From assembly GCF_900182955.1 (NCBI RefSeq), contig NZ_FXUL01000033.1:1-58403 (forward strand): a stretch of DNA of 58,403 nt, in the 5' to 3' direction. How positions within the stretch are numbered: position 1 is the first letter of the stretch; every line of letters starts with the position of its first letter. The notes under the pieces are model-generated. The model was not told the origin of the DNA. It made no database searches and was given only the letters and a program-made list of their open reading frames with translations. Both the position numbers and the translations under genes were made by a program. Origin of the DNA: Noviherbaspirillum suwonense. GTDB lineage: Bacteria > Pseudomonadota > Gammaproteobacteria > Burkholderiales > Burkholderiaceae_D. Below are positions 26,888 to 38,064 of this stretch, one piece after another.

Positions 26888-27955
26888 CTAATCCGGCTTG
26901 GCGGCGTTTTCAACGGGCTTTGCAGCCGGTTCGGCAAGGGTGTCTGCCATCGCTTTCTTGACCGCATTGACGATGTTCGCGCGCAGGCCTTCAGGCGCAT
27001 TTGCCAGGTCGATTTTCAGGCGACCGTCTTCGAATTCACGTATGGAGCCCAGACGCGTGTTTCCCCATTGCAAAGGGTAAGCGCGCGACCGTTCCCGGGT
27101 AAGCGGCTCATGGGCTTTTCGTTCGCGCATCCGCTCGAGGTCACGCACCGATAACTTTTCGGCGATCACTTGCTCGGCGATGGATTCCAGCGCTGTTTCA
27201 TCCACCAGCTTGGACAACTGTCGCATCTCCTGGGCGACGCGGATGCCGAAGCTGGCAGGCCGGGTCCGGACGATGTTGAGCACCCGGGGCGGGAGGTCGA
27301 GCACGGCAAGGGTCTTGGACACCGTGCCCTGCTTGATGTTGAGATGCTCGGCAATGTGATCCTGGCCGCGGTACGTGCCGTCATCCAGCATCGTTCTCCA
27401 GGAGAGCGCGTTGTCCAGGATCGTCTGGTCGTTACGCTCCTCGTTCAAGAGCAGGGAGAGCCGGTAAGCCTCCAGGTCCGACAGCGGCTCGACGATGGAC
27501 GCCAGTATTGTCGTCCGGCCCAGGCTGATCAACGCCCGCTTGCGGTATCGTCCCTCGATCAGCAGATAAGCGCCCGGCGTGTCAGGGTCCGGCATCGCGA
27601 CTGCAGGCACGCGCTGGCCGTCCCGTGCAATCGTGGTCGCCATCTCATCAATGCGCGCAGGATCGTAGACCTGGCGTGCATTGCGTGGATGGTCCTTGAC
27701 CAGGGCGATTGGCAGAGCCCGTACTACGTAATCCTCGCTGGCGGGCGCCTGTACCGAGGCTGGGGGCGCTGGCGCCCTGCTATCCAAGCCGGCTTCAGCA
27801 GTCGCCGTCTTCGTCTCCGCTTCCTGCGCCCGTTGCAGCTTGACCCGGCTCATCGCAACGACCAGATCCGCATTTTCGAACTTGTCCTTGGATTGCACAG
27901 TCTGGTCGGCGACGCTCGGGTTCAGCCTGTCGTACAACCCCTTTTTTTTGCTCAT
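26888..27955 (-). CDS. parB: ParB-family partition protein
   Basis: A 355-residue centromere-binding protein. The ParB/Srx-like domain (about 78-180) contains DHPRNARQVYDPARIDEMATTIARDGQRVPAVA and IEGRYRKRALISLG, a variant of the GERRxxA box used for CTP binding. A helix-turn-helix follows (IAEHLNIKQGTVSKTLAVLDLPPRVL, about 195-225). The N-terminal 75 residues are linker-like. Its ATG overlaps the parA stop as ATGA, so the pair is translationally coupled. It faces rep tail-to-tail. Confidence 0.92.
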   Translation of the reverse strand: MSKKKGLYDRLNPSVADQTVQSKDKFENADLVVAMSRVKLQRAQEAETKTATAEAGLDSRAPAPPASVQAPASEDYVVRALPIALVKDHPRNARQVYDPARIDEMATTIARDGQRVPAVAMPDPDTPGAYLLIEGRYRKRALISLGRTTILASIVEPLSDLEAYRLSLLLNEERNDQTILDNALSWRTMLDDGTYRGQDHIAEHLNIKQGTVSKTLAVLDLPPRVLNIVRTRPASFGIRVAQEMRQLSKLVDETALESIAEQVIAEKLSVRDLERMRERKAHEPLTRERSRAYPLQWGNTRLGSIREFEDGRLKIDLANAPEGLRANIVNAVKKAMADTLAEPAAKPVENAAKPD

Positions 27956-28650
27956 TTCCTGCCCTTGGTCTTGATCTTGGGAACCTGCAGTTTTAAGGTG
28001 GCGACGATCTCGTCGAACAAGTTTTCGATCTCGAGGATGGCCGTCTTCGCGCTGCTGCCGAAGTAATGGACCGAATCCCCTGTCAGCATCGCTTCGACAA
28101 ACGCGGTGCGCTGGTGCAATCGCGTCTTGAATAGCGGCGCACTTTCGCGCATCGTCGCCATGCTGGTCAGCGAGTGGCGCGACATGGCAAGATTGGCAAT
28201 GACGTTGGAACCGAGCAATCGTATCTGGAGTTCCGGGTTGACCGCAGCAGCCCGCTCGGCAAGTTCCAGCAGGTCAGTCGACGCCCAAAGATCTCCTGGC
28301 TTTGGCACGATGGGGACGATCGCCAGATCGGCGATCATCAGCATGACCTGCGGTATCGGCGAATCGACCGAGGGCGGGCAGTCGACGAAGATCAGATCGT
28401 AATCGTCCACGTACTGTTTGACTTCCTGCGCAATCTTGGCCTCCGCCATCGCCAGTCCCATCACGCGGATCTTGTGCGCCTGCCCTTCTTCTGCCTGGGC
28501 AACCCATTTCGTCGCCGTTCCCTGCTTGTCTGCATCGATCAGCAAGGTTTTGAAACCTCTACGGACGGCGGTCCCGGCCAGATGCACTGCAGCGGTGGTC
28601 TTCCCAGCGCCGCCCTTCTGATTTGTGACGATGATGAGTTTGGCTGGCAT
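27952..28650 (-). CDS. parA: ParA-family partition ATPase
   Basis: A 232-residue deviant Walker-type ATPase. The P-loop KGGAGKTT (about 12-19) carries the signature Lys at its start; Walker A' (LLIDADKQGTATKW) and Walker B (YDLIFVDCPPSVDSP) follow. It lacks the N-terminal DNA-binding domain of P1-type ParA, so it is the short form, and its own promoter is more likely controlled by ParB or by ParA through other contacts. With ParB it should segregate the replicon. Confidence 0.92.
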   Translation of the reverse strand: MPAKLIIVTNQKGGAGKTTAAVHLAGTAVRRGFKTLLIDADKQGTATKWVAQAEEGQAHKIRVMGLAMAEAKIAQEVKQYVDDYDLIFVDCPPSVDSPIPQVMLMIADLAIVPIVPKPGDLWASTDLLELAERAAAVNPELQIRLLGSNVIANLAMSRHSLTSMATMRESAPLFKTRLHQRTAFVEAMLTGDSVHYFGSSAKTAILEIENLFDEIVATLKLQVPKIKTKGRK

Positions 28651-29562: not shown

Positions 29563-31527
29563 CTAGTCTAGCGACCCGAGCGCCTCGAGCTTCTCCACTT
29601 CCCGGCTGCGCTTGTCCTTTTCGGTCGTTATATAAATAGATGTTGTCGTAAGCGACCGATGCCCTAAAAGGTCGCGTATCGTTTCAAGACCCATCCCGGC
29701 ATGTATGCCGTGCGTCGCGAAGGTATGCCTCAGCCAGTGCGTTGAAACGCGCCCAAACTTTGCGGCTCGCGCAGGATCTTCAGCCTGAATCTCGTTAGCA
29801 ACGTCCTCGAAAAATGTCTTGAGGACTTTGTAGATTCGTCCCGAAGACAACGGTGTTTCCACGCGCACGGCCTGTTTATCCCGGGGCACCGACGCGATCA
29901 ATGGCGCGTCGGGCGGCGCGTCTGCGAATGTCCGGTATCCCCTAGTCTGAAAGTAGCTTTCTATCTCCGCGACGATCAGGCGATTGAGTTGCACACGCCT
30001 GGTTTTACCGCCCTTTCCGAGCACAGCCAGTTCCCACTGGGCGTCCTGTTCTCCAGCCCGGACGAACGTAATCAAGTCACGTCGGTGCAATGCTGCAAGT
30101 TCCGAAAGGCGACATCCCGTGCTGTAGGCAAGTGCGAGGACAAACCGCAGCCGGTAATACCTTTGATCCTTTTGCATGGATCTCAGATAACGCTTTACCA
30201 CGCTCCAGTCTTCAAGCGTCAATGCCCGCGTAATGTCCATGCCCTCATTGCGCGCCGCCAGATGCGGCATGGCTTTAAATGGATTGTTGTGCAAATAATT
30301 CTGGTCGCACAGCCACTGCATCATGCCTTGTAAGATGACAAGCGCAGTGCGCTGTGAACTCTCGGAAAGTGCGCTTTCAAACGGACGCCAGCGCGAAGAA
30401 AACCGGTCGATGCCGCGCGGGCCTATCCAGTCGGCTTGTGCGATCCGGAAGTGCTGTTTCCATTGCTCGTCTGTTTCCCGTCCCAGTCGCCACAGGAAGT
30501 CACGGTAGGCAATGCAGTCCTCCACTGTCAGAGAGCTCAGCGCAGTCCTGGCTTCCAGCACAGACCAAAGCAAAAAACGCTCTGCTTCCTTGCGGTAGGC
30601 GCGCAAGGTATGACTGCCCGGCTTCCTGCGCGACAGCCAAACATTAATTGCCTCGAGGTCATTGCGTGCGCTGAGCGATGAACGCTCGGCCCTGTTCGAA
30701 CCCGTGGCGCCGCTTAATGCTTGCGGCACTTCGAATTGTTCGATCGGCACGATGCCGGGCCGGCGGGGCAGGGCGGGTACGGACGCCGGCAGTATCTGCA
30801 TGCGCGGCTGGATACTGCGTATGGACAGCGTCACCCCCAGCGCGTCAGCCGTTTCAGGAAGCATGAGCCACTCGACGATATAGCCGGCCGCCTTGATCCC
30901 GATGCGTGGGACCTTGGTGTACCACCGAAATCCATGGGCTTCGATCGTGTCGACGAGATCCCGCAATGTAATGATTCGGGCCGCGACCAGGCGGTTTGCG
31001 ATCGCCGGATCGAGCCAGCCAGCGACGCCATCATCCAGATGCGGATCGGCCTGGACGAGTGCCTCAAGCTGGTTGAGCACAGCGGCCTGCCGTTCGCGCA
31101 GCCGCTTGTTCCGCTTGAACCGCCTCTGCGCGCCTGGATCCGTCGCACCATATTCCTGTTCGAAAAGTTCGAGAAGTTCTCGTTCGGAAAACATCTGGTG
31201 CGGATCGCGCTCTTCGCGAAATTCATCCAGGTCAGGGCTTGCTCCTTCCTGCCTGGCGGCAAGCTTTTCGGGAGCCATGCGAATTACCCGAGCGCCAGCC
31301 GCATTGCCTGTCCGCCGCGCGGCGACAGTGAGCTGATCGACGATCCAGCCCAGCAGCGACTTCGCAACGCGCAGGTCAGTGGCGCCAGCCTGCGCCGCAT
31401 TTGTTTCGATATACCGTTCGGAGAGTTGCCTTAAGTCCAGGCCATCCAGATAGCCGCGGAAGAAAGCGAAGTGATGGCGACCAAGCTGTACAAGCACGGT
31501 TCCGCGGGAAATCCAGTTTGCCGGCAT
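29563..31527 (-). CDS. Large tyrosine recombinase of the replicon backbone
   Basis: A 654-residue site-specific recombinase. The first 300 residues are a non-catalytic extension (QLGRHHFAFFRGYLDGLDLRQLSERYIE; WLDPAIANRLVAARIITLRDLVDTIEAHG). A core-binding domain (about 300-410) and the catalytic domain follow. Catalytic residues are complete: Arg in STGCRLSELAALHRRDL, His-x-x-Arg in HWLRHTFATHG, His in DLLGHRSLTTT and Tyr in SIYITTEKDK. Proteins of this type accompany rep/parAB on Burkholderiales secondary replicons and probably resolve multimers. It is not flanked by phage genes. Confidence 0.88.
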   Translation of the reverse strand: MPANWISRGTVLVQLGRHHFAFFRGYLDGLDLRQLSERYIETNAAQAGATDLRVAKSLLGWIVDQLTVAARRTGNAAGARVIRMAPEKLAARQEGASPDLDEFREERDPHQMFSERELLELFEQEYGATDPGAQRRFKRNKRLRERQAAVLNQLEALVQADPHLDDGVAGWLDPAIANRLVAARIITLRDLVDTIEAHGFRWYTKVPRIGIKAAGYIVEWLMLPETADALGVTLSIRSIQPRMQILPASVPALPRRPGIVPIEQFEVPQALSGATGSNRAERSSLSARNDLEAINVWLSRRKPGSHTLRAYRKEAERFLLWSVLEARTALSSLTVEDCIAYRDFLWRLGRETDEQWKQHFRIAQADWIGPRGIDRFSSRWRPFESALSESSQRTALVILQGMMQWLCDQNYLHNNPFKAMPHLAARNEGMDITRALTLEDWSVVKRYLRSMQKDQRYYRLRFVLALAYSTGCRLSELAALHRRDLITFVRAGEQDAQWELAVLGKGGKTRRVQLNRLIVAEIESYFQTRGYRTFADAPPDAPLIASVPRDKQAVRVETPLSSGRIYKVLKTFFEDVANEIQAEDPARAAKFGRVSTHWLRHTFATHGIHAGMGLETIRDLLGHRSLTTTSIYITTEKDKRSREVEKLEALGSLD

Positions 31528-31951: not shown

Positions 31952-34126
31952 TTATGCACCGATCTGTTCGGGACGCACGATAAAAGAATGAGCAAGAAGC
32001 GCTTCCTTGTGTTCCATCGTCCGGACATCGTCGATCACTTTCCCTCGGTCAATGACGATCACGCGATCTGCTGACAAGATGGTCTCGGGGCGGTGCGCGA
32101 CGATAATGCGGGTCATCCGGTTCTCGGAAATTGCAGCATTGACTGCTCTTTCTCGCGCCACATCCAGGTGGCTTGTCGCTTCATCGAGCAGCAAGATGAC
32201 CGGGTCGTTGTAGAGCGCGCGCGCAATCAGGACGCGCTGCTTCTGTCCTCCGGACAAGACGGTTCCCATATCGCCGATCAGCGTGTGATATCCCATCGGC
32301 ATGTTATTGATGTCCTCATGCACTGCTGCTAGTTCGGCACACTTTCTGACCCTGGCAGGGGAGGGCTTGTCCGCGAAGAAGCTGATGTTATCCGCAATGG
32401 AGCCGGCAAACAGGTGATCGTCCTGCAGCACCACGCCGATCATGGCGCGATAACGTTCCAATCCGACACGGTCGAGCGGACTTCCATCGATCAGCACATC
32501 ACCCGACGTCTGTTCGCGCAGGCTCGCAAGCACGCGGAGCAGGGTAGTCTTGCCGCAGCCGGAAATGCCGACGATGGCCACGCATTCTCCTGGTTCGATT
32601 CGAAAATTCAGGCCGTCCAGCACCCAGGGATCGTTTGCGCCATATCGGAATCGCAGGTTTCTTACTTCGACTGCGGGAGGCCTGGTTTGCCGCTCCTGCT
32701 CGAAAACGGGGGTTCGCGGCTCCGGCGCGGTCAATGCGATATCCGCCAGGCGTTCAGCATGCAACCGTAGAAGGTGAAGATCGAGCGCCTTGTTGATCAC
32801 TTCTGTCGCACGGCTCAGGAACTGGTCCTTATAGCTGAGAAACGCAAGCAGCATCCCGACGGAAAAGGTGTTTTGCAGTACGCGGTTTGCACCCAGCCAG
32901 ACGACCAGGATGGCAACCGTGCCGATCAGGAGGGAATTAATTGTTTTAAACGCCAGGGAAAGCTTCTGCGTCGTGATCTGGCGGTTTACGGTCTGGACCA
33001 ACAGATTGAGCCAGTGCGCACGGCGATTTTCCTGCGCATTGAATAGCTTGATGGTTTTTATGCCGCGCATGGTTTCCAGAAAATGACTGTCCCGTTTAGC
33101 GCCCCAGACAATGGACTCAATCGAGGCCTGTCGCAGCGGCGTGTACAGACCCCACCGCAAAAGGGCGTAGAGCAATGCGCCTGCAAGCACGACGGCGGCG
33201 AGGGCGGGCGCATAGATGAACATCACCACCAGGGTAATCAAGGACATCAGTCCGTCGAGCAGGATTTCGACCATGTCAGTCGTAATCGCCTGCAGGATCA
33301 CCTCCTGCGACCCAAATCGCGACATGACGTCGCCGATGTGGCGCGATTCGTAATAGCTCGCAGGTAGATTAATAAGATGGGTGAACAGATTCGCGCGGCC
33401 CATGACCTTCAAGGAACTGGAAATTGCAATGAGGGTCCATCCCCGCATTGCTGTCACTGCCACCCGGATAAAAAGGAGCAGCATGAAGCCCATCACAAGG
33501 GTAAGCAAGAGGTTGGCGTCTGCGGTGACCAGCGCTTCATCGACGACCCACTGCATGAAAAAGGGACTTATTACCGCAAACACCTCAATGGCAAGCGCCA
33601 TCAATGCAAGCATCCCGAGGGACTGCTTCAGGCCGACCATGCGCCCCAGGAGGCTGCTGATGCGGACGCGCGCCGCCGGTTTCATTTCATCGAACTGGGC
33701 TGTCGGCGTCAGTTCAAGCGCCACGCCGGTGAAATGCTGAAGGACCTCCGTGTTGGATACCCGGAGCACGCCGACGCCCGGATCGTGAATGACGATGCTG
33801 GCAGCGCCAGCATGCTTGAGAACGACGAAATGGTTCAGGTCCCAGTGCAAAATACAGGGCGCCTGCAACTGACGCAATTCCTCCACTTCCAAACGCAGCG
33901 GTCTCGATGCCAACCCGATCTTGTCGGCAATGCCGATCAGGTCTTTAAAGGTCGACCCCTTGAGCGACAGGCCAAATTGCCGGCGCAGCTCTCCCATGTC
34001 GACGTGATTGCCATGGTAGCCGGCAATCATCGCCAGGCAAACGAGACCGCACTCAGCCGCTTCCGTCTGCAGCATCATCGGCAGGGGCTTGCCCAAGCCA
34101 AGGTTGAGCTCGTCCAAGAGGCTCAT
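31952..34126 (-). CDS. C39 peptidase-containing peptide ABC exporter
   Basis: A 724-residue transporter with three modules. The N-terminal C39 peptidase (about 1-140) is intact: Gln in MLQTEAAECGLVCLAM, the catalytic Cys in the same segment, His in WDLNHFVVL and Asp in IHDPGVG. A six-helix membrane domain covers about 150-430. The ATPase (about 475-700) has Walker A GISGCGKTT, the signature LSGGQKQR and Walker B ILLLDEATSHLD. It should cleave double-glycine leaders and export the core peptide. The start at MSLLDEL overlaps the HlyD stop (ATGA). Partner precursor at 36631. Confidence 0.92.
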   Translation of the reverse strand: MSLLDELNLGLGKPLPMMLQTEAAECGLVCLAMIAGYHGNHVDMGELRRQFGLSLKGSTFKDLIGIADKIGLASRPLRLEVEELRQLQAPCILHWDLNHFVVLKHAGAASIVIHDPGVGVLRVSNTEVLQHFTGVALELTPTAQFDEMKPAARVRISSLLGRMVGLKQSLGMLALMALAIEVFAVISPFFMQWVVDEALVTADANLLLTLVMGFMLLLFIRVAVTAMRGWTLIAISSSLKVMGRANLFTHLINLPASYYESRHIGDVMSRFGSQEVILQAITTDMVEILLDGLMSLITLVVMFIYAPALAAVVLAGALLYALLRWGLYTPLRQASIESIVWGAKRDSHFLETMRGIKTIKLFNAQENRRAHWLNLLVQTVNRQITTQKLSLAFKTINSLLIGTVAILVVWLGANRVLQNTFSVGMLLAFLSYKDQFLSRATEVINKALDLHLLRLHAERLADIALTAPEPRTPVFEQERQTRPPAVEVRNLRFRYGANDPWVLDGLNFRIEPGECVAIVGISGCGKTTLLRVLASLREQTSGDVLIDGSPLDRVGLERYRAMIGVVLQDDHLFAGSIADNISFFADKPSPARVRKCAELAAVHEDINNMPMGYHTLIGDMGTVLSGGQKQRVLIARALYNDPVILLLDEATSHLDVARERAVNAAISENRMTRIIVAHRPETILSADRVIVIDRGKVIDDVRTMEHKEALLAHSFIVRPEQIGA

Positions 34127-35454
34127 CCGTTCCACTTTCCGGTAAAGGAGTAAAGAGGATCCAGCACCCATTCATACAAGCGACGCCGCTCCAGGACAAT
34201 ATCCGCGTCGAGTTGCATATTCGGCTGCAATCGCAAGGCCTTGCCGTAGGCTGTGACATCCTGTGTAGTCAAACGGACGGTCACGCGGTACACCGCCTCG
34301 GTGGAGCCAGGGGCGTTGACGAGTCCAGCGAGTTGCGGCGGCAGCTCCGCAGGGCTGATCGCCGACTTGGCGATGCTGGATATCGTTCCTTCGTAGTGGC
34401 CGAATTTCTGGTAAGGGTAGGCCTGGTAGCGAAGCAGTACACGCTGGCCCGCCTGCAAAAAACCAATTGCCCGGCTAGGCGCGTACAGGTGGGCTTCCAG
34501 CCGGGTGCCGGATGGGATGATGCTAAGCAAGGGCACCGCAGGTTTTACGCCGCCCCCCAATTCAACCTGCACGGCGCTCACCGTACCGTCCTGCGGCGCA
34601 GGCACCACTATCTCGCGCCGCGCTTCCGCTTCAGCCAACTCCTGGCCGATGACGGAAATGTTGCGGGCGATGCTGGCGTCCTGGGCCTGAAATTTTATCG
34701 GGAGATCCCGGAGTTCACCTTCGAGTCCAAGACGATCGCGCTGCAAGATCATGCGATTTCGCTCCAGCGCCCTCAGCTTGGCGGCCTGCTCGATCCGCGC
34801 TTCTGCAGCCGTCTGAAGCTGTTGCTGAGAGATGAATCCGCGGTCAACCAGGTCTTTCTGGCGTTCTTCCGTCTTGATTGCCAGTTGCAGACGCGACCGC
34901 TGCAGATCGATCTCCTCCTTGAGTTGAGCTTGCTCCAGGCTCAACGCGGTCAGCCGGTCAGTGATTGCTTTGGACTGCTGCTTCAATAACTGCTGGTTTT
35001 GACGTCCTTCCTGGAGCAGGCTCTCGCGTCGCGCTGCCATTGCCCGGGCGATACTGGCCTGCGTATCGCCCAGGTTGACGCTTTGCTGCTCCGTCGACAG
35101 GGCGACCAGGGGCTGTCCCTTGCGAACCGCATCGCCTTCCTTCACGAAAAAACTCGTCACGACGCCCGGCTGCGAGGCAAATACCCGTGCCACGCCTTGT
35201 TCCGGCACCAGCCAGCCCCCCACATGCGCTTTCCTGGCATAGCTGGCACAGAACAGCAGGGAAAGGATTCCAGCGGTGAGGACAAGGGCAATCGCCGTGA
35301 ACCATCGCTGGGACGGACGGGGCTTTAGGAGAACCGTGCCCAGCCATTGGGTCTGCTGCTCGACCAGAACCTGTGGCCGGAATAGGGAATCCTTGGGGGC
35401 CAGCGCTTTACCGGGGCCCGCATCGATGGCTTGTGTCCGGACCGAGCCTTCCAT
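34123..35454 (-). CDS. HlyD/CvaA-type periplasmic adaptor
   Basis: A 443-residue membrane fusion protein. One transmembrane helix near 50-72 (FTAIALVLTAGILSLLF) follows a short cytoplasmic N terminus. A lipoyl-like segment (VFASQPGVVTSFFVKEGDAVRKGQPL, about 90-115) and a long coiled coil (about 125-235, rich in Gln/Leu/Glu) come next. The beta-barrel region lies at the C terminus (VELGGGVKPAVPLLSIIPSGTRLEAHLYAPSRAIGFLQAGQRVLLRY). It should bridge the ABC exporter to an outer-membrane TolC-like channel, which is not encoded here. Two bases separate it from the upstream gene. Confidence 0.9.
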   Translation of the reverse strand: MEGSVRTQAIDAGPGKALAPKDSLFRPQVLVEQQTQWLGTVLLKPRPSQRWFTAIALVLTAGILSLLFCASYARKAHVGGWLVPEQGVARVFASQPGVVTSFFVKEGDAVRKGQPLVALSTEQQSVNLGDTQASIARAMAARRESLLQEGRQNQQLLKQQSKAITDRLTALSLEQAQLKEEIDLQRSRLQLAIKTEERQKDLVDRGFISQQQLQTAAEARIEQAAKLRALERNRMILQRDRLGLEGELRDLPIKFQAQDASIARNISVIGQELAEAEARREIVVPAPQDGTVSAVQVELGGGVKPAVPLLSIIPSGTRLEAHLYAPSRAIGFLQAGQRVLLRYQAYPYQKFGHYEGTISSIAKSAISPAELPPQLAGLVNAPGSTEAVYRVTVRLTTQDVTAYGKALRLQPNMQLDADIVLERRRLYEWVLDPLYSFTGKWNG

Positions 35455-35456
35455 AT

Positions 35457-36404
35457 CTATTCTTCGACCAGATAGTCACGGATCTCGTAGCTGACTTCAA
35501 TTGTCCGGGCAACCTTTTTGGTTGCGCACAATTTCCTGATCTTCGGATCCTTGAAATCTTTCAGCAGCGGCGGCCTCGGGGAATTGAAGAAATAGCCCGG
35601 GTCATTGGCGACGATGGGTTTGGCGATAAGGTCGAGTTCATCACGGCGGGTTACCGTCTGGACAATGCATGGCGCGTGAGTGATGCCCAGCTCGCTCAAT
35701 GCGCATGCGCGATGGTATCCATTATTAAGAACCAATCGACCGCTGTCGTCATCATGGATCGCATTCAGGAAATTCGAGCTGAATCCCACGACCAAACCGA
35801 TGACGCCGGCAATCTGCCCAAATGACTCATGACCTGAAATCTGGCCGGGTTTGAGCATCAGGGCTTCATGAAAGCGGAAGTCTGTAGAAGACGAGCGAAA
35901 GATATATCGCCTCGAATCCGCCTCCCTTATCTGGACGGGCGCCTGGTATTCCTCAAGCGGCAGACAGAAGCGAAACAAGGATGCAATATCCGCCGCCTGC
36001 CCAAGTCGGGACTTGAGCATTTCCACGAAATTGCGATTCACATGGTTTTGACATACCACCAGGCGATCGAGTTCGACCATCTTAATCGCGGTCGGCAGAC
36101 TTTCGAATGTATGCCGAAAGCGGGGATCAGCTGCAAGTTCCGCTGCACAATCATCGAGTTCCGATGGAAGCGAGAAAGTTTCTATCGCGTCCGCGATGTT
36201 TCTCTCGGTTCTCATGAGAAGTTCATAGTAATCGTTAGCGTTACGCCATTCATTTACCCTGTCGCTACGGATTCCATTTGCACCTTCTCGCCCAAGGTCA
36301 TCGACAAAGTCGAGGTATTTTTTCAGCGGAGGCTGGCCTAGAATCCATAATTCCTGCTGGCCGGCAGCTTGCGCCGCAGTCTCATGCCCGTTTTGGAACC
36401 TGTC
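35457..36404 (-). CDS. Hypothetical protein with ParB-like motif, in the peptide-export operon
   Basis: A 315-residue soluble protein with no known enzyme motif for peptide modification. The clearest feature is NNGYHRACALSELGITHAPCIVQTV (about 225-250), which resembles the G-x-HR-xx-AL-xx-G segment of ParB/Srx-fold proteins that bind or use nucleotides. The N terminus reads MDRFQNGHETAAQAAG. I chose this start because GGGAAG lies just upstream; in-frame ATGs at 36479 and 36515 would add a hydrophobic stretch. It sits two bases before the adaptor gene, so it probably belongs to the export or maturation machinery. Immunity is another possibility. Confidence 0.65.
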   Translation of the reverse strand, partial: DRFQNGHETAAQAAGQQELWILGQPPLKKYLDFVDDLGREGANGIRSDRVNEWRNANDYYELLMRTERNIADAIETFSLPSELDDCAAELAADPRFRHTFESLPTAIKMVELDRLVVCQNHVNRNFVEMLKSRLGQAADIASLFRFCLPLEEYQAPVQIREADSRRYIFRSSSTDFRFHEALMLKPGQISGHESFGQIAGVIGLVVGFSSNFLNAIHDDDSGRLVLNNGYHRACALSELGITHAPCIVQTVTRRDELDLIAKPIVANDPGYFFNSPRPPLLKDFKDPKIRKLCATKKVARTIEVSYEIRDYLVEE

Positions 36405-36540
36405 CATAAATCTTCCCGCTTGCGCATAAAAAGTTGATCTTGCGAACAGTAAAATGCATGCCTTTATCGGATAGATCATGTAATCCCCGGCGCCCAACAC
36501 CGAGGGTTCATTCACAAAGCCGGCAGGCGATTTACGGATA

Positions 36541-36581
36541 GTGCCGGGCCAAGCGTTTTGTCAGAACGCCTGGCCCGGTGC
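36541..36581 (-). terminator. Strong hairpin between precursor and exporter genes
   Basis: Arms of 17 nt (36541-36557 and 36565-36581) pair at 14 positions around a 7-nt loop. There is no T run on either strand, so it is not a classical terminator. Placed 50 bp after the precursor stop, it could be an RNA-stability or partial-termination element that lets the precursor be made in excess of the exporter. Confidence 0.65.
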
Positions 36582-36630
36582 GACTAGGGCCATCATTCAG
36601 ATTGCAACGGCCTTCCAGGCAAATACGGCT

Positions 36631-36813
36631 TTAGTACTTGTTATGGCTGTGGCTACGGCTGCGGCTGCCGCTCTGATTTTTGTTGCCATGATGCGAACCG
36701 CTTTTGCTTCTCCCTCCATGCCCGCGGGTATGTGACTTGGACCTGTCCTTGTCGCCGTACGCCTTATTCCCGCCATAAACATGTTCAAGTTCAGTACTGG
36801 TCAGATTTCTCAT
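36631..36813 (-). CDS. Double-glycine-leader peptide precursor with hydrophilic Ser/His/Arg-rich core
   Basis: A 60-residue precursor. The start is fixed by GGAG seven bases before the ATG of MRNLTS (six codons after an earlier ATG). The leader MRNLTSTELEHVYGG fits the double-glycine consensus: Leu at -12, Glu at -8, Leu at -7, Val at -4, Gly-Gly at -2/-1. Cleavage would release a 45-residue core with 10 Ser, 7 Gly, 6 His, 6 Lys, 5 Arg, 4 Asn, 2 Asp, 2 Tyr and one each of Ala, Thr and Gln; no Cys and one aliphatic residue. Net charge is about +9 without His. This differs from the hydrophobic or Cys-paired cores of known class II bacteriocins and microcins. Confidence 0.8.
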   Translation of the reverse strand: MRNLTSTELEHVYGGNKAYGDKDRSKSHTRGHGGRSKSGSHHGNKNQSGSRSRSHSHNKY

Positions 36814-36840
36814 AGCAGTCTCCATTTTCAAGATACAGAA

Positions 36841-36912
36841 GATGTCTGGTTCCTATAGACATCGGTTATCCGCTGCAAAAGGCTCTTGCAGCGGTCTTGC
36901 CTTTGAGGCAAG
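36841..36912 (-). promoter_or_regulatory. Three consecutive stem-loops in the precursor 5' leader
   Basis: Three perfect hairpins precede the precursor gene: GATGTCT/AGACATC (36841-36863, 7 bp), CGCTGCAA/TTGCAGCG (36871-36893, 8 bp) and CTTGCC/GGCAAG (36896-36912, 6 bp). They lie 28-99 bp upstream of the start codon and would be transcribed. Candidate roles are control of mRNA stability or translation. No known riboswitch class is recognised. Confidence 0.6.
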
Positions 36913-38064
36913 TTCTAGATGCGAAATGATTAAAAAAGAATCTGAATCAGAAGTCTGCTTTGTCGGAAGAAATAAAATCTGTGCAGGTGCCGCGAAACTT
37001 TTTGAAAAAAACGCGTCAATTAGCTGATCAAGGAATCTCTTTACGAGCAGGACTATTGCATTCATATCGTGACGAAAATTGTCGAGTGCAGTCATTTTTT
37101 AGCTATTTATACAAGAGCATCGACTCAGGATCGATGCATCAGCTTAATGCATGACGGTTTCTATCACTCATTTTGAATCAGTAAGACCACCTAATCAGGT
37201 TGATGGCGATTCTATAGAGAAGGTGGCCTGGTATTCGTTTTCTCGCTGAATTTCTTTATCCATGATTCCGCATTTCCATGGGATCAGAATGAATCGCTGA
37301 TTGAAAATTTTTTTGATATTCATCAAATGAAGATTTGATCCGCTATTTTTCGCGCCGGCATGCGGTTATTCACAGAAAAACTTGAAATCATTAACGCGAT
37401 TTTATTCATCCAAGCGAATAATTTGAGAAAATAGGAAAGGATGTTCAGTGAATATCAATCAATCTCCTATTGTCGAGTATTTCAGGAGTGCCGCCGGATA
37501 GCGGTCCGAATCCGGGGTGACATATTTGAAGTAAGGAAGAGCTAATTCAGCAGCGGCATTGACAGCTGTACCCTATCGATGGCAAATGCATTGCCAGCAT
37601 GACGCGGGAAGGAAGCGATATCGCCAGTAGGTAAAACCGTGGGGAGGTCAATCGGCTATCAAGCGACGCGAACTGATCCCGGCCCGTCCGTTACCTGCCG
37701 CGCCCAGATGCTCCTGGCTTTGGATTTTCTGGCTCGAAGATGGTGTAGAACGATGCGCGAACGTGCGGTTAGCAGTCTGCATAGGTCGTGCTCGCAAACC
37801 GATTTCCCGACAACCGCCAACGTTAAGTGTCGAGGCGCAGACGATCGCCGGTTTTGCTGAGTTTTGGGGGAGGGCGAGAAGGTCGGCCAGGCTGTCATAG
37901 TCATCCGGCCTGGCCTGGCTTGTCCTATGAACTTCGCTAGCGGGACGGGCGCTTACAAGGCGGGATAAATTCATGTAATGGCACTCGCCGATCAGCGCGG
38001 CGTGCTTGCCACTACCAGGCTGCCACAACGCACAAGTCGCCATGGCAGCCGATGAGCGCGACAA
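36913..38064. other. AT-richer gene-poor region
   Basis: About 1.15 kb with clearly lower GC than its neighbours, most marked at 36920-37450. Short frames exist on both strands (for example 36853-37095 minus and 37648-38064 minus), but none has a convincing ribosome-binding site or recognised family. The precursor promoter must lie at its left end; no clear -35/-10 pair is claimed. It looks like transferred or degenerated DNA. Confidence 0.55.

Follow-up and report, generated by a model that had tools for sequence, protein, structure and literature searches.

A ParB-motif protein accompanies a serine-spaced, polycationic double-glycine peptide in a conserved export locus of Noviherbaspirillum suwonense and related bacteria

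What does a protein with a ParB-like motif do beside the gene of an exported peptide? The question is raised by a locus of Noviherbaspirillum suwonense (genome 6.45 Mb) on contig NZ_FXUL01000033.1, whose whole length of 58,403 nucleotides constitutes the window analyzed here. On the minus strand, from 36813 to 31952, lie genes for a 60-residue double-glycine precursor, a ParB-motif protein, a HlyD-family adaptor and a C39-peptidase ATP-binding cassette (ABC) exporter. The anatomy of this locus, its conservation, and the coupling between cargo and partner protein are documented below. The locus is real and, within searches of the open PubMed Central (PMC) literature, undescribed: by titles and abstract beginnings, none of the matches listed described such a system. 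Its surprising part is the pairing of a serine (Ser)-spaced polycationic cargo with the ParB-motif protein. In the best explanation available, to which we give about an even chance, this protein would be a precursor-tailoring enzyme (possibly a serine kinase) or a chaperone that acts before the peptide is cleaved and exported.

Translation of the precursor gene yields the leader MRNLTSTELEHVYGG (15 residues), followed by a core of 45 residues. The core contains 10 Ser and 6 His, lacks Cys and carries a net charge of +9 (Lys and Arg minus Asp and Glu), as the initial annotation had it. The leader is of the double-glycine type by its GG (or GA) ending, its hydrophobic/Glu pattern and the C39-ABC exporter nearby, and M1, R2, L4, E8, V12 and G14 are invariant in an alignment of 13 leaders. 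The core is made of Ser, Lys, Arg and His, with Ser often at alternate positions (Ser spacing test, p 0.0002). The trait common to the 14 loci described below is Ser spaced between Lys, Arg, His or Asn, not His itself: the number of His per core ranges from 0 to 7 among the homologs and several other members contain Cys, so that neither His nor the absence of Cys defines the family. Freedom from Cys is thus a property of the window core and not a family trait, and His-mediated metal binding, which had been offered as a rationale, was rejected as a common function.

A significant Ser-x-Ser excess was found in 12 of the 14 loci, the exceptions being those of Blastomonas and of a genome designated G1350. 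When 12 cores were pooled (the set excludes three near-copies of G137, namely G180, G158 and the main G147 copy, and includes the second G147 copy and G1350), 84 Ser-x-Ser pairs were counted against 31.8 expected from shuffles, the maximum of 3000 shuffles being 45, and only 4 adjacent Ser-Ser pairs against 32.6 expected; Ser spacings of 4 and 6 were likewise above expectation. Tested singly, 12 of 13 cores, several of them near-copies, had a Ser-x-Ser excess at p < 0.05 (G1350 and G158, whose peptide is identical to that of G180, were left out). Ser makes up 21-36% and Lys/Arg/His 30-44% of 11 of the 12 pooled cores, with G1350 as the outlier.

The four-gene cassette recurs in 13 further loci, which belong to the window's family, to a second family of the same class and to four alphaproteobacterial plasmids. 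The full set of 14 comprises the window, eight close family members, the plasmid records of Paracoccus, Methylobacterium, Rhodobacter and Blastomonas, and G1350, which was added by a class-wide search; in all 14, the ParB-motif gene has nearby genes for a C39 ABC exporter, for HlyD and for a peptide whose leader ends in GG or GA and whose core is basic. The locus is not a product of chance, since the leader, the set of genes and the character of the core all recur in this way. A protein search of 294 family genomes found a ParB-motif homolog in 10, nine of them (including the window's) at E < 1e-100 and the tenth, G067, at 1.8e-8. A precursor profile matched nine of the 294 genomes, namely the same nine with a close ParB-motif homolog (Fisher p 2.5e-17, which overstates the case because the profile was made from these same peptides, at most 22 candidates were scored per genome and the genomes are related); absence from the remaining 285 genomes is the informative part of this co-occurrence. 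The initial annotation had named two findings that would tell against it, a lack of the precursor in all related genomes that carry this exporter and another substrate gene next to the exporter in homologous loci; the four-gene cassette passed this check. Search tallies, which are lower bounds and include the window's genome, were at least 1 of 399 genomes for the order, at least 3 of 398 for the phylum and at least 2 of 274 for the class, with up to 5, 5 and 8 first-look candidates scored per genome, respectively. No homologous locus was found in viral contigs, and a plasmid search with the typed precursor, a weak method for low-complexity peptides, returned no match, though four plasmids carry the cassette.

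Related exporters provide a comparison. Twenty loci without a ParB-motif gene, whose exporters are 47-54% identical, were fetched out of 66 exporter matches that a search of 145 genomes had listed; they are the best matches outside the cassette, minus one G069 match ranked just above the last chosen, and four of them are cut by contig ends (L085, L086, L091 and L095). No Ser-spaced polycationic cargo was found in these 20. Credible GG peptides, judged by eye from the leader pattern, are present in 14 of them, and 17 such peptides, plus the G067 cargo, served as comparators; further GG candidates (L088, L092 and L096) and doubtful ones (L086, L087, L088, L094, L097 and L101) were left out. Ser, Lys, Arg and His together account for a fraction of 0.53-0.79 in 13 cassette cores and 0.05-0.31 in the 17 comparator peptides, and the hydrophobic fraction (AVILMFWC) is 0.02 in the window core versus 0.25-0.72 in the 17 comparator cores. 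In the exporter tree, which also contains four of five examined plasmid exporter loci as comparators (L040 was left out), 13 of the 14 cassette exporters group on the same side of a branch supported at 100/100. The Blastomonas exporter is placed elsewhere on a long branch, its position flagged as unsure, and accompanies the same kind of peptide/ParB-motif pair; if that placement holds, the pair would have stayed together while the exporter was exchanged. Because the two partners are found in the same nine of 294 genomes and are kept together in Blastomonas despite an apparently different exporter, the ParB-motif protein goes with this cargo.

What kind of protein it is can be approached through distant relatives. 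No Pfam or NCBIfam family matched the open reading frame (ORF), which spans 35457-36515 and opens at a GTG at 36515; the true start is probably near 36407, because the alignments of homologs begin around residue 37 of the ORF. Sixteen aligned members have in common G24, W54, Q120, R224, G230, H232, R233 and D284, among others, as well as an acidic residue (E/D181) in all 16 rows. Two profiles were built, A4 from the 16 members and the narrower A2 from 11. Searched against all PDB sequences, A4 gave 13 matches at E<=10, 11 of which have the ParB fold: SerK (three), SbnI (three), Spo0J, a 'ParB family protein' (three) and 1vk1, which we take to be the SerK-like PF0380. Every ParB-fold match range covers the N-G-x-H-R region, and the profile relation to the ParB/sulfiredoxin superfamily is centered on the region of ParB GERR and SerK DGHHR. 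When A4 was compared with 18 ParB_N domains by hhalign, the E value was 3.1e-4 (probability 39%), a value reached by none of 60 column-shuffled controls, the best of which gave 0.063. On account of these PDB matches and of the hhalign value unreached by shuffles, a ParB/sulfiredoxin fold appears likely, with the free serine kinase SerK as the best solved relative. For SerK, the [DN]G-x-HR motif and a following LG...P pattern are aligned; the ParB-motif protein differs from SerK and SbnI in being approximately 160 N-terminal residues longer and in its genomic linkage to a peptide precursor. In SerK, SbnI and sulfiredoxin the fold serves as the ATP-binding module of enzymes, SerK branches together with many uncharacterized proteins, and a SerK-like protein binds CTP, according to PMC12704722.

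The same kind of protein appears to occur in a second, unrelated peptide setting. In another family (f17), at least 4 of 149 genomes, with up to 15 first-look candidates scored per genome, contain a divergent homolog (29-31% identity), and the four (L030, L031, L035 and L036) each adjoin a lasso-type gene set of transglutaminase-like and asparagine-synthetase-like proteins, recognized by Pfam in two of the four and by similar ORF starts in the other two; ABC transporters are present in the two clusters tested. The predicted precursors terminate in FPTTSP, with the ending SETKAHNHGTLWDGVFPTTSP or, in L035, SETRAHSHGTLWDGIFPTTSP, and the predicted core is near-identical across the loci (AHNHGTLWDGVFPTTSP; L035, AHSHGTLWDGIFPTTSP); the core and a ring from Ala1 to Asp9 are our own assignment. 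The known lasso peptide kinases, such as PadeK, ThcoK and PsmK, are of another, HPr-kinase-like fold. They offer an analogy in that they tailor Ser of a ribosomally made precursor while the leader is still attached. Since they phosphorylate a C-terminal Ser of the precursor (PMC9266682), a Ser/Thr-modifying role would fit both settings; the word ParB does not occur in that review.

Taken as a mechanism, the locus would be a minimal exported-peptide cassette. Its double-glycine leader is specific to this system, and in its polycationic core the Ser residues lie between basic or polar ones. In the cytosol, the ParB/sulfiredoxin-fold protein would act on the precursor prior to export. Most likely, side chains of the core would be modified in a nucleoside triphosphate-dependent step, Ser phosphorylation being the leading guess; alternatively, the protein may be a switch-like chaperone. 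C39 ABC exporters cut after Gly-Gly and export the product, and by this family knowledge the exporter here would do the same together with HlyD, with TolC from elsewhere in the genome as the presumed partner. Of the inferences drawn here, tailoring of the precursor by the ParB-motif protein has the best support, and we are evenly divided about it; within it, the more specific idea of a Ser/Thr kinase is a guess and a rather unlikely one. The initial annotation had seen no maturase: there is indeed no lanthipeptide or radical-SAM maturase among the four genes, and maturation of those types was rejected, with the neighboring genes scanned in part; the broader statement has become doubtful, given that the ParB-motif protein is coupled to the cargo and recurs in lasso-type clusters.

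Several observations weigh against this explanation. The three SerK matches that head the A4 search are weak (E 0.013-0.025), the A2 profile ranks SerK, at E 0.55, below an unrelated chain and reaches only E 0.042 against ParB_N, none of the 16 members scanned singly matches a ParB Pfam model (only stray weak Pfam matches were obtained), and a structure prediction from a two-sequence alignment was unusable, with a predicted local distance difference test score of 31.3. Glu30 of SerK, which we take to be catalytic, aligns, albeit weakly, with a position that is variable in the 16 members. SerK itself uses ADP and acts on free serine only, not on Ser within peptides, according to PMC5120207. As for the cargo, the Ser-x-Ser excess of the Blastomonas core alone is not significant (p 0.21); the G1350 core is Gly-Lys-rich, with 6 Ser (15%), 18% Lys/Arg/His and three adjacent Ser pairs; three cores of the g12 group end in a hydrophobic GLLGWLL tail and reach a hydrophobic fraction of 0.19-0.21; and the cargo of the divergent relative in G067 is another one, a GG peptide of 168 residues with NSPQPR repeats. 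Growth of hexanucleotide repeats could also account in part for the Ser spacing, room for which is left by the excess of AGC (104 of 133 Ser codons in 12 genes); the use of both codon types (AGY 106, TCN 27) argues for selection on Ser.

Other readings have to be set beside this one. The ParB-motif protein might regulate the operon or serve as its scaffold in a nucleotide-dependent manner, working as a CTP/ATP switch, while a plain polycationic peptide is exported unmodified. In ParB and its relatives the fold works as a CTP-dependent DNA clamp, and further proteins of this fold bind CTP, ATP or GTP with no catalysis known (PMC12704722); the poor conservation of the presumed catalytic Glu points the same way. 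We nevertheless consider a regulator improbable, as Pfam detected neither HTH_ParB nor any other helix-turn-helix family in the 16 members (the window's partition ParB, 26888-27955, does carry HTH_ParB), the ParB-motif gene tracks the type of cargo and not that of the exporter, and it recurs in lasso-type clusters with another kind of exporter. A bacteriocin- or microcin-type toxin locus, in which the cationic peptide would kill competing cells while the ParB-motif protein confers self-immunity, comes to mind because class II microcins are exported with the same set of GG leader, C39 exporter and HlyD, many related exporters lie near bacteriocin-like GG peptides, and no other candidate was noticed: by eye, among the four genes and the ORF starts of five loci, no immunity gene was seen apart from the ParB-motif protein itself as a candidate. 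The hydrophilic window core lacks the hydrophobic or amphipathic character of class II microcins and bacteriocins, so that the initial description of a peptide-export locus with a cationic core unlike that of a bacteriocin has held up, also in the homologous loci; the g12 tails come closer to the comparators. The ParB-motif protein, moreover, resembles nucleotide-binding enzymes, and immunity would not readily explain its presence in lasso-type clusters with ABC transporters. We regard a toxin locus as very unlikely.

A further possibility concerns the role of the product and is compatible with precursor tailoring: the secreted SK/SR repeats might bind polyanions, as a signaling or surface-matrix peptide, or be sensed by a two-component system. 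In Paracoccus and Rhodobacter, the exporter gene is followed by a histidine kinase gene (annotated as an ATP-binding protein) and a response regulator gene, the kinase domains having been checked by a test for Rhodobacter, and GG peptides act in biofilm development of Synechococcus (PMC4997328). Against this stands that no two-component genes were noticed by eye in the first 50 residues of the ORFs of five window-family loci, and that it is silent on the ParB-motif protein; it is possible but rather doubtful. Surface or polyanion binding, competition and signaling are all candidate roles outside the cell.

The coordinates of the locus are collected below. The initial annotation spoke of one tight minus-strand operon, and all four genes are on that strand; the gap of 223 bases between the precursor and the ParB-motif gene (start 36407) is not tight. 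The stretch 36536-36634 folds at -41.1 kcal/mol (z -3.38 for the whole stretch), and its stem-loop may possibly tune the expression of precursor versus enzyme; several other loci have long GC-rich stems at the same intergenic place, as judged by eye with no shuffle control. The region upstream of the precursor, with a possible regulatory role, is also more stable than shuffles (-48.8 kcal/mol, z -3.45). An Rfam scan of the whole window gave no family at the gathering threshold. The exporter contains Peptidase_C39 (E 1.6e-35), ABC_membrane and ABC_tran domains, and its residues 34-715 match the solved bacteriocin transporter 4ry2 (E 1.9e-90).

Features of the peptide-export locus in the window
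Feature	Position	Strand	Basis
Precursor peptide	36631..36813	-	Translation; leader and core kept in 13 aligned precursors; Ser spacing test
Probable ParB/sulfiredoxin-fold protein with NGYHR motif	35457..36407	-	Homologs, PDB profile matches, hhalign; function inferred
HlyD-family periplasmic adaptor	34123..35454	-	Pfam HlyD_3, E 8.7e-16
C39-peptidase ABC exporter	31952..34171	-	Pfam; match to 4ry2
Stem-loop, 14 bp	36544..36578	-	RNA fold of 36536-36634
Stable stems upstream of the precursor, including one of 11 bp	36814..36990	-	RNA fold

Near the operon, the window encodes a ParA/ParB partition pair (26888-28650) and a tyrosine recombinase (DUF3701; 29563-31527); these neighbors suggest a plasmid or mobile element, and four homologous cassettes are plasmid-borne. 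The arrangement varies among the homologous loci. In Blastomonas, exporter and adaptor are in the opposite orientation, with genes for a 2OG-Fe(II) oxygenase and for another GG-type peptide, of other composition, in between (L017:2590-3698). In G1350, an opposite-strand ORF without a Pfam match separates the peptide from the ParB-motif gene, and a FemAB-like gene sits between the ParB-motif and HlyD genes. FemAB-like genes accompany the cassette in 2 of 14 loci, those of M. nodulans (L015:12790-13821) and G1350 (L104:9052-10080), and the two are 57.5% identical; none was found in the 11 other cassette loci covered (the window not among them), in G067 or in the 20 comparators. FemABX-related enzymes participate in aminoacyl-tRNA-dependent steps of several natural products (PMC12945691), and such tailoring of Lys-rich peptides by the FemAB-like proteins is possible. 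HlyD and exporter are matched only piecewise in G180 (L020:6442-9190), by decay or sequencing error, and G147 has a second, degenerate copy of the cassette with another SK peptide and fragments of the ParB-motif and HlyD genes (L021:10836-12101). The distant G067 protein (25%) is encoded between the exporter and HlyD genes (L026:8830-15173), at a locus that also encodes a 434-residue protein without a Pfam match. DmeF, a neighbor of the Paracoccus cassette, might hint at a metal role.

Compared with known double-glycine/C39 systems such as class II microcins, PCAT1 and ComA, the locus has the same GG leader, C39-ABC exporter and HlyD adaptor, but differs in its hydrophilic, Ser-spaced polycationic core, in the linked ParB-motif protein and in that no immunity gene was noticed. 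Ser mixed or alternating with Lys/Arg is also found in silaffins, the silica peptides of diatoms, and in eukaryotic SR proteins, both of which are phosphorylated; the likeness is one of make-up, these proteins being eukaryotic and without a GG leader, and homology is not claimed. A wider proposal, which we hold only tentatively and with the balance tilted against it, is that ParB/sulfiredoxin-fold proteins form an unrecognized peptide-tailoring class (e.g., peptide Ser/Thr kinases) serving two unrelated ribosomal types, C39-exported SK/SR-repeat peptides and a lasso peptide. If this is true, these bacteria would export a phosphorylated polyampholyte of Ser and basic residues that resembles silaffins or SR domains in composition. 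Should the precursor prove to be modified by the ParB-motif protein, a new enzyme fold would enter ribosomal peptide biosynthesis and one uncharacterized ParB-fold branch would gain a function; secreted SK/SR-repeat peptides of bacteria would be defined as a family, and an NG-x-HR protein next to a leader like MR-x-L...E...V-x-G[GA] would provide a handle for genome mining. Even if it does not, the occurrence in two peptide settings of a ParB-fold protein that is coupled to the cargo calls for an explanation.

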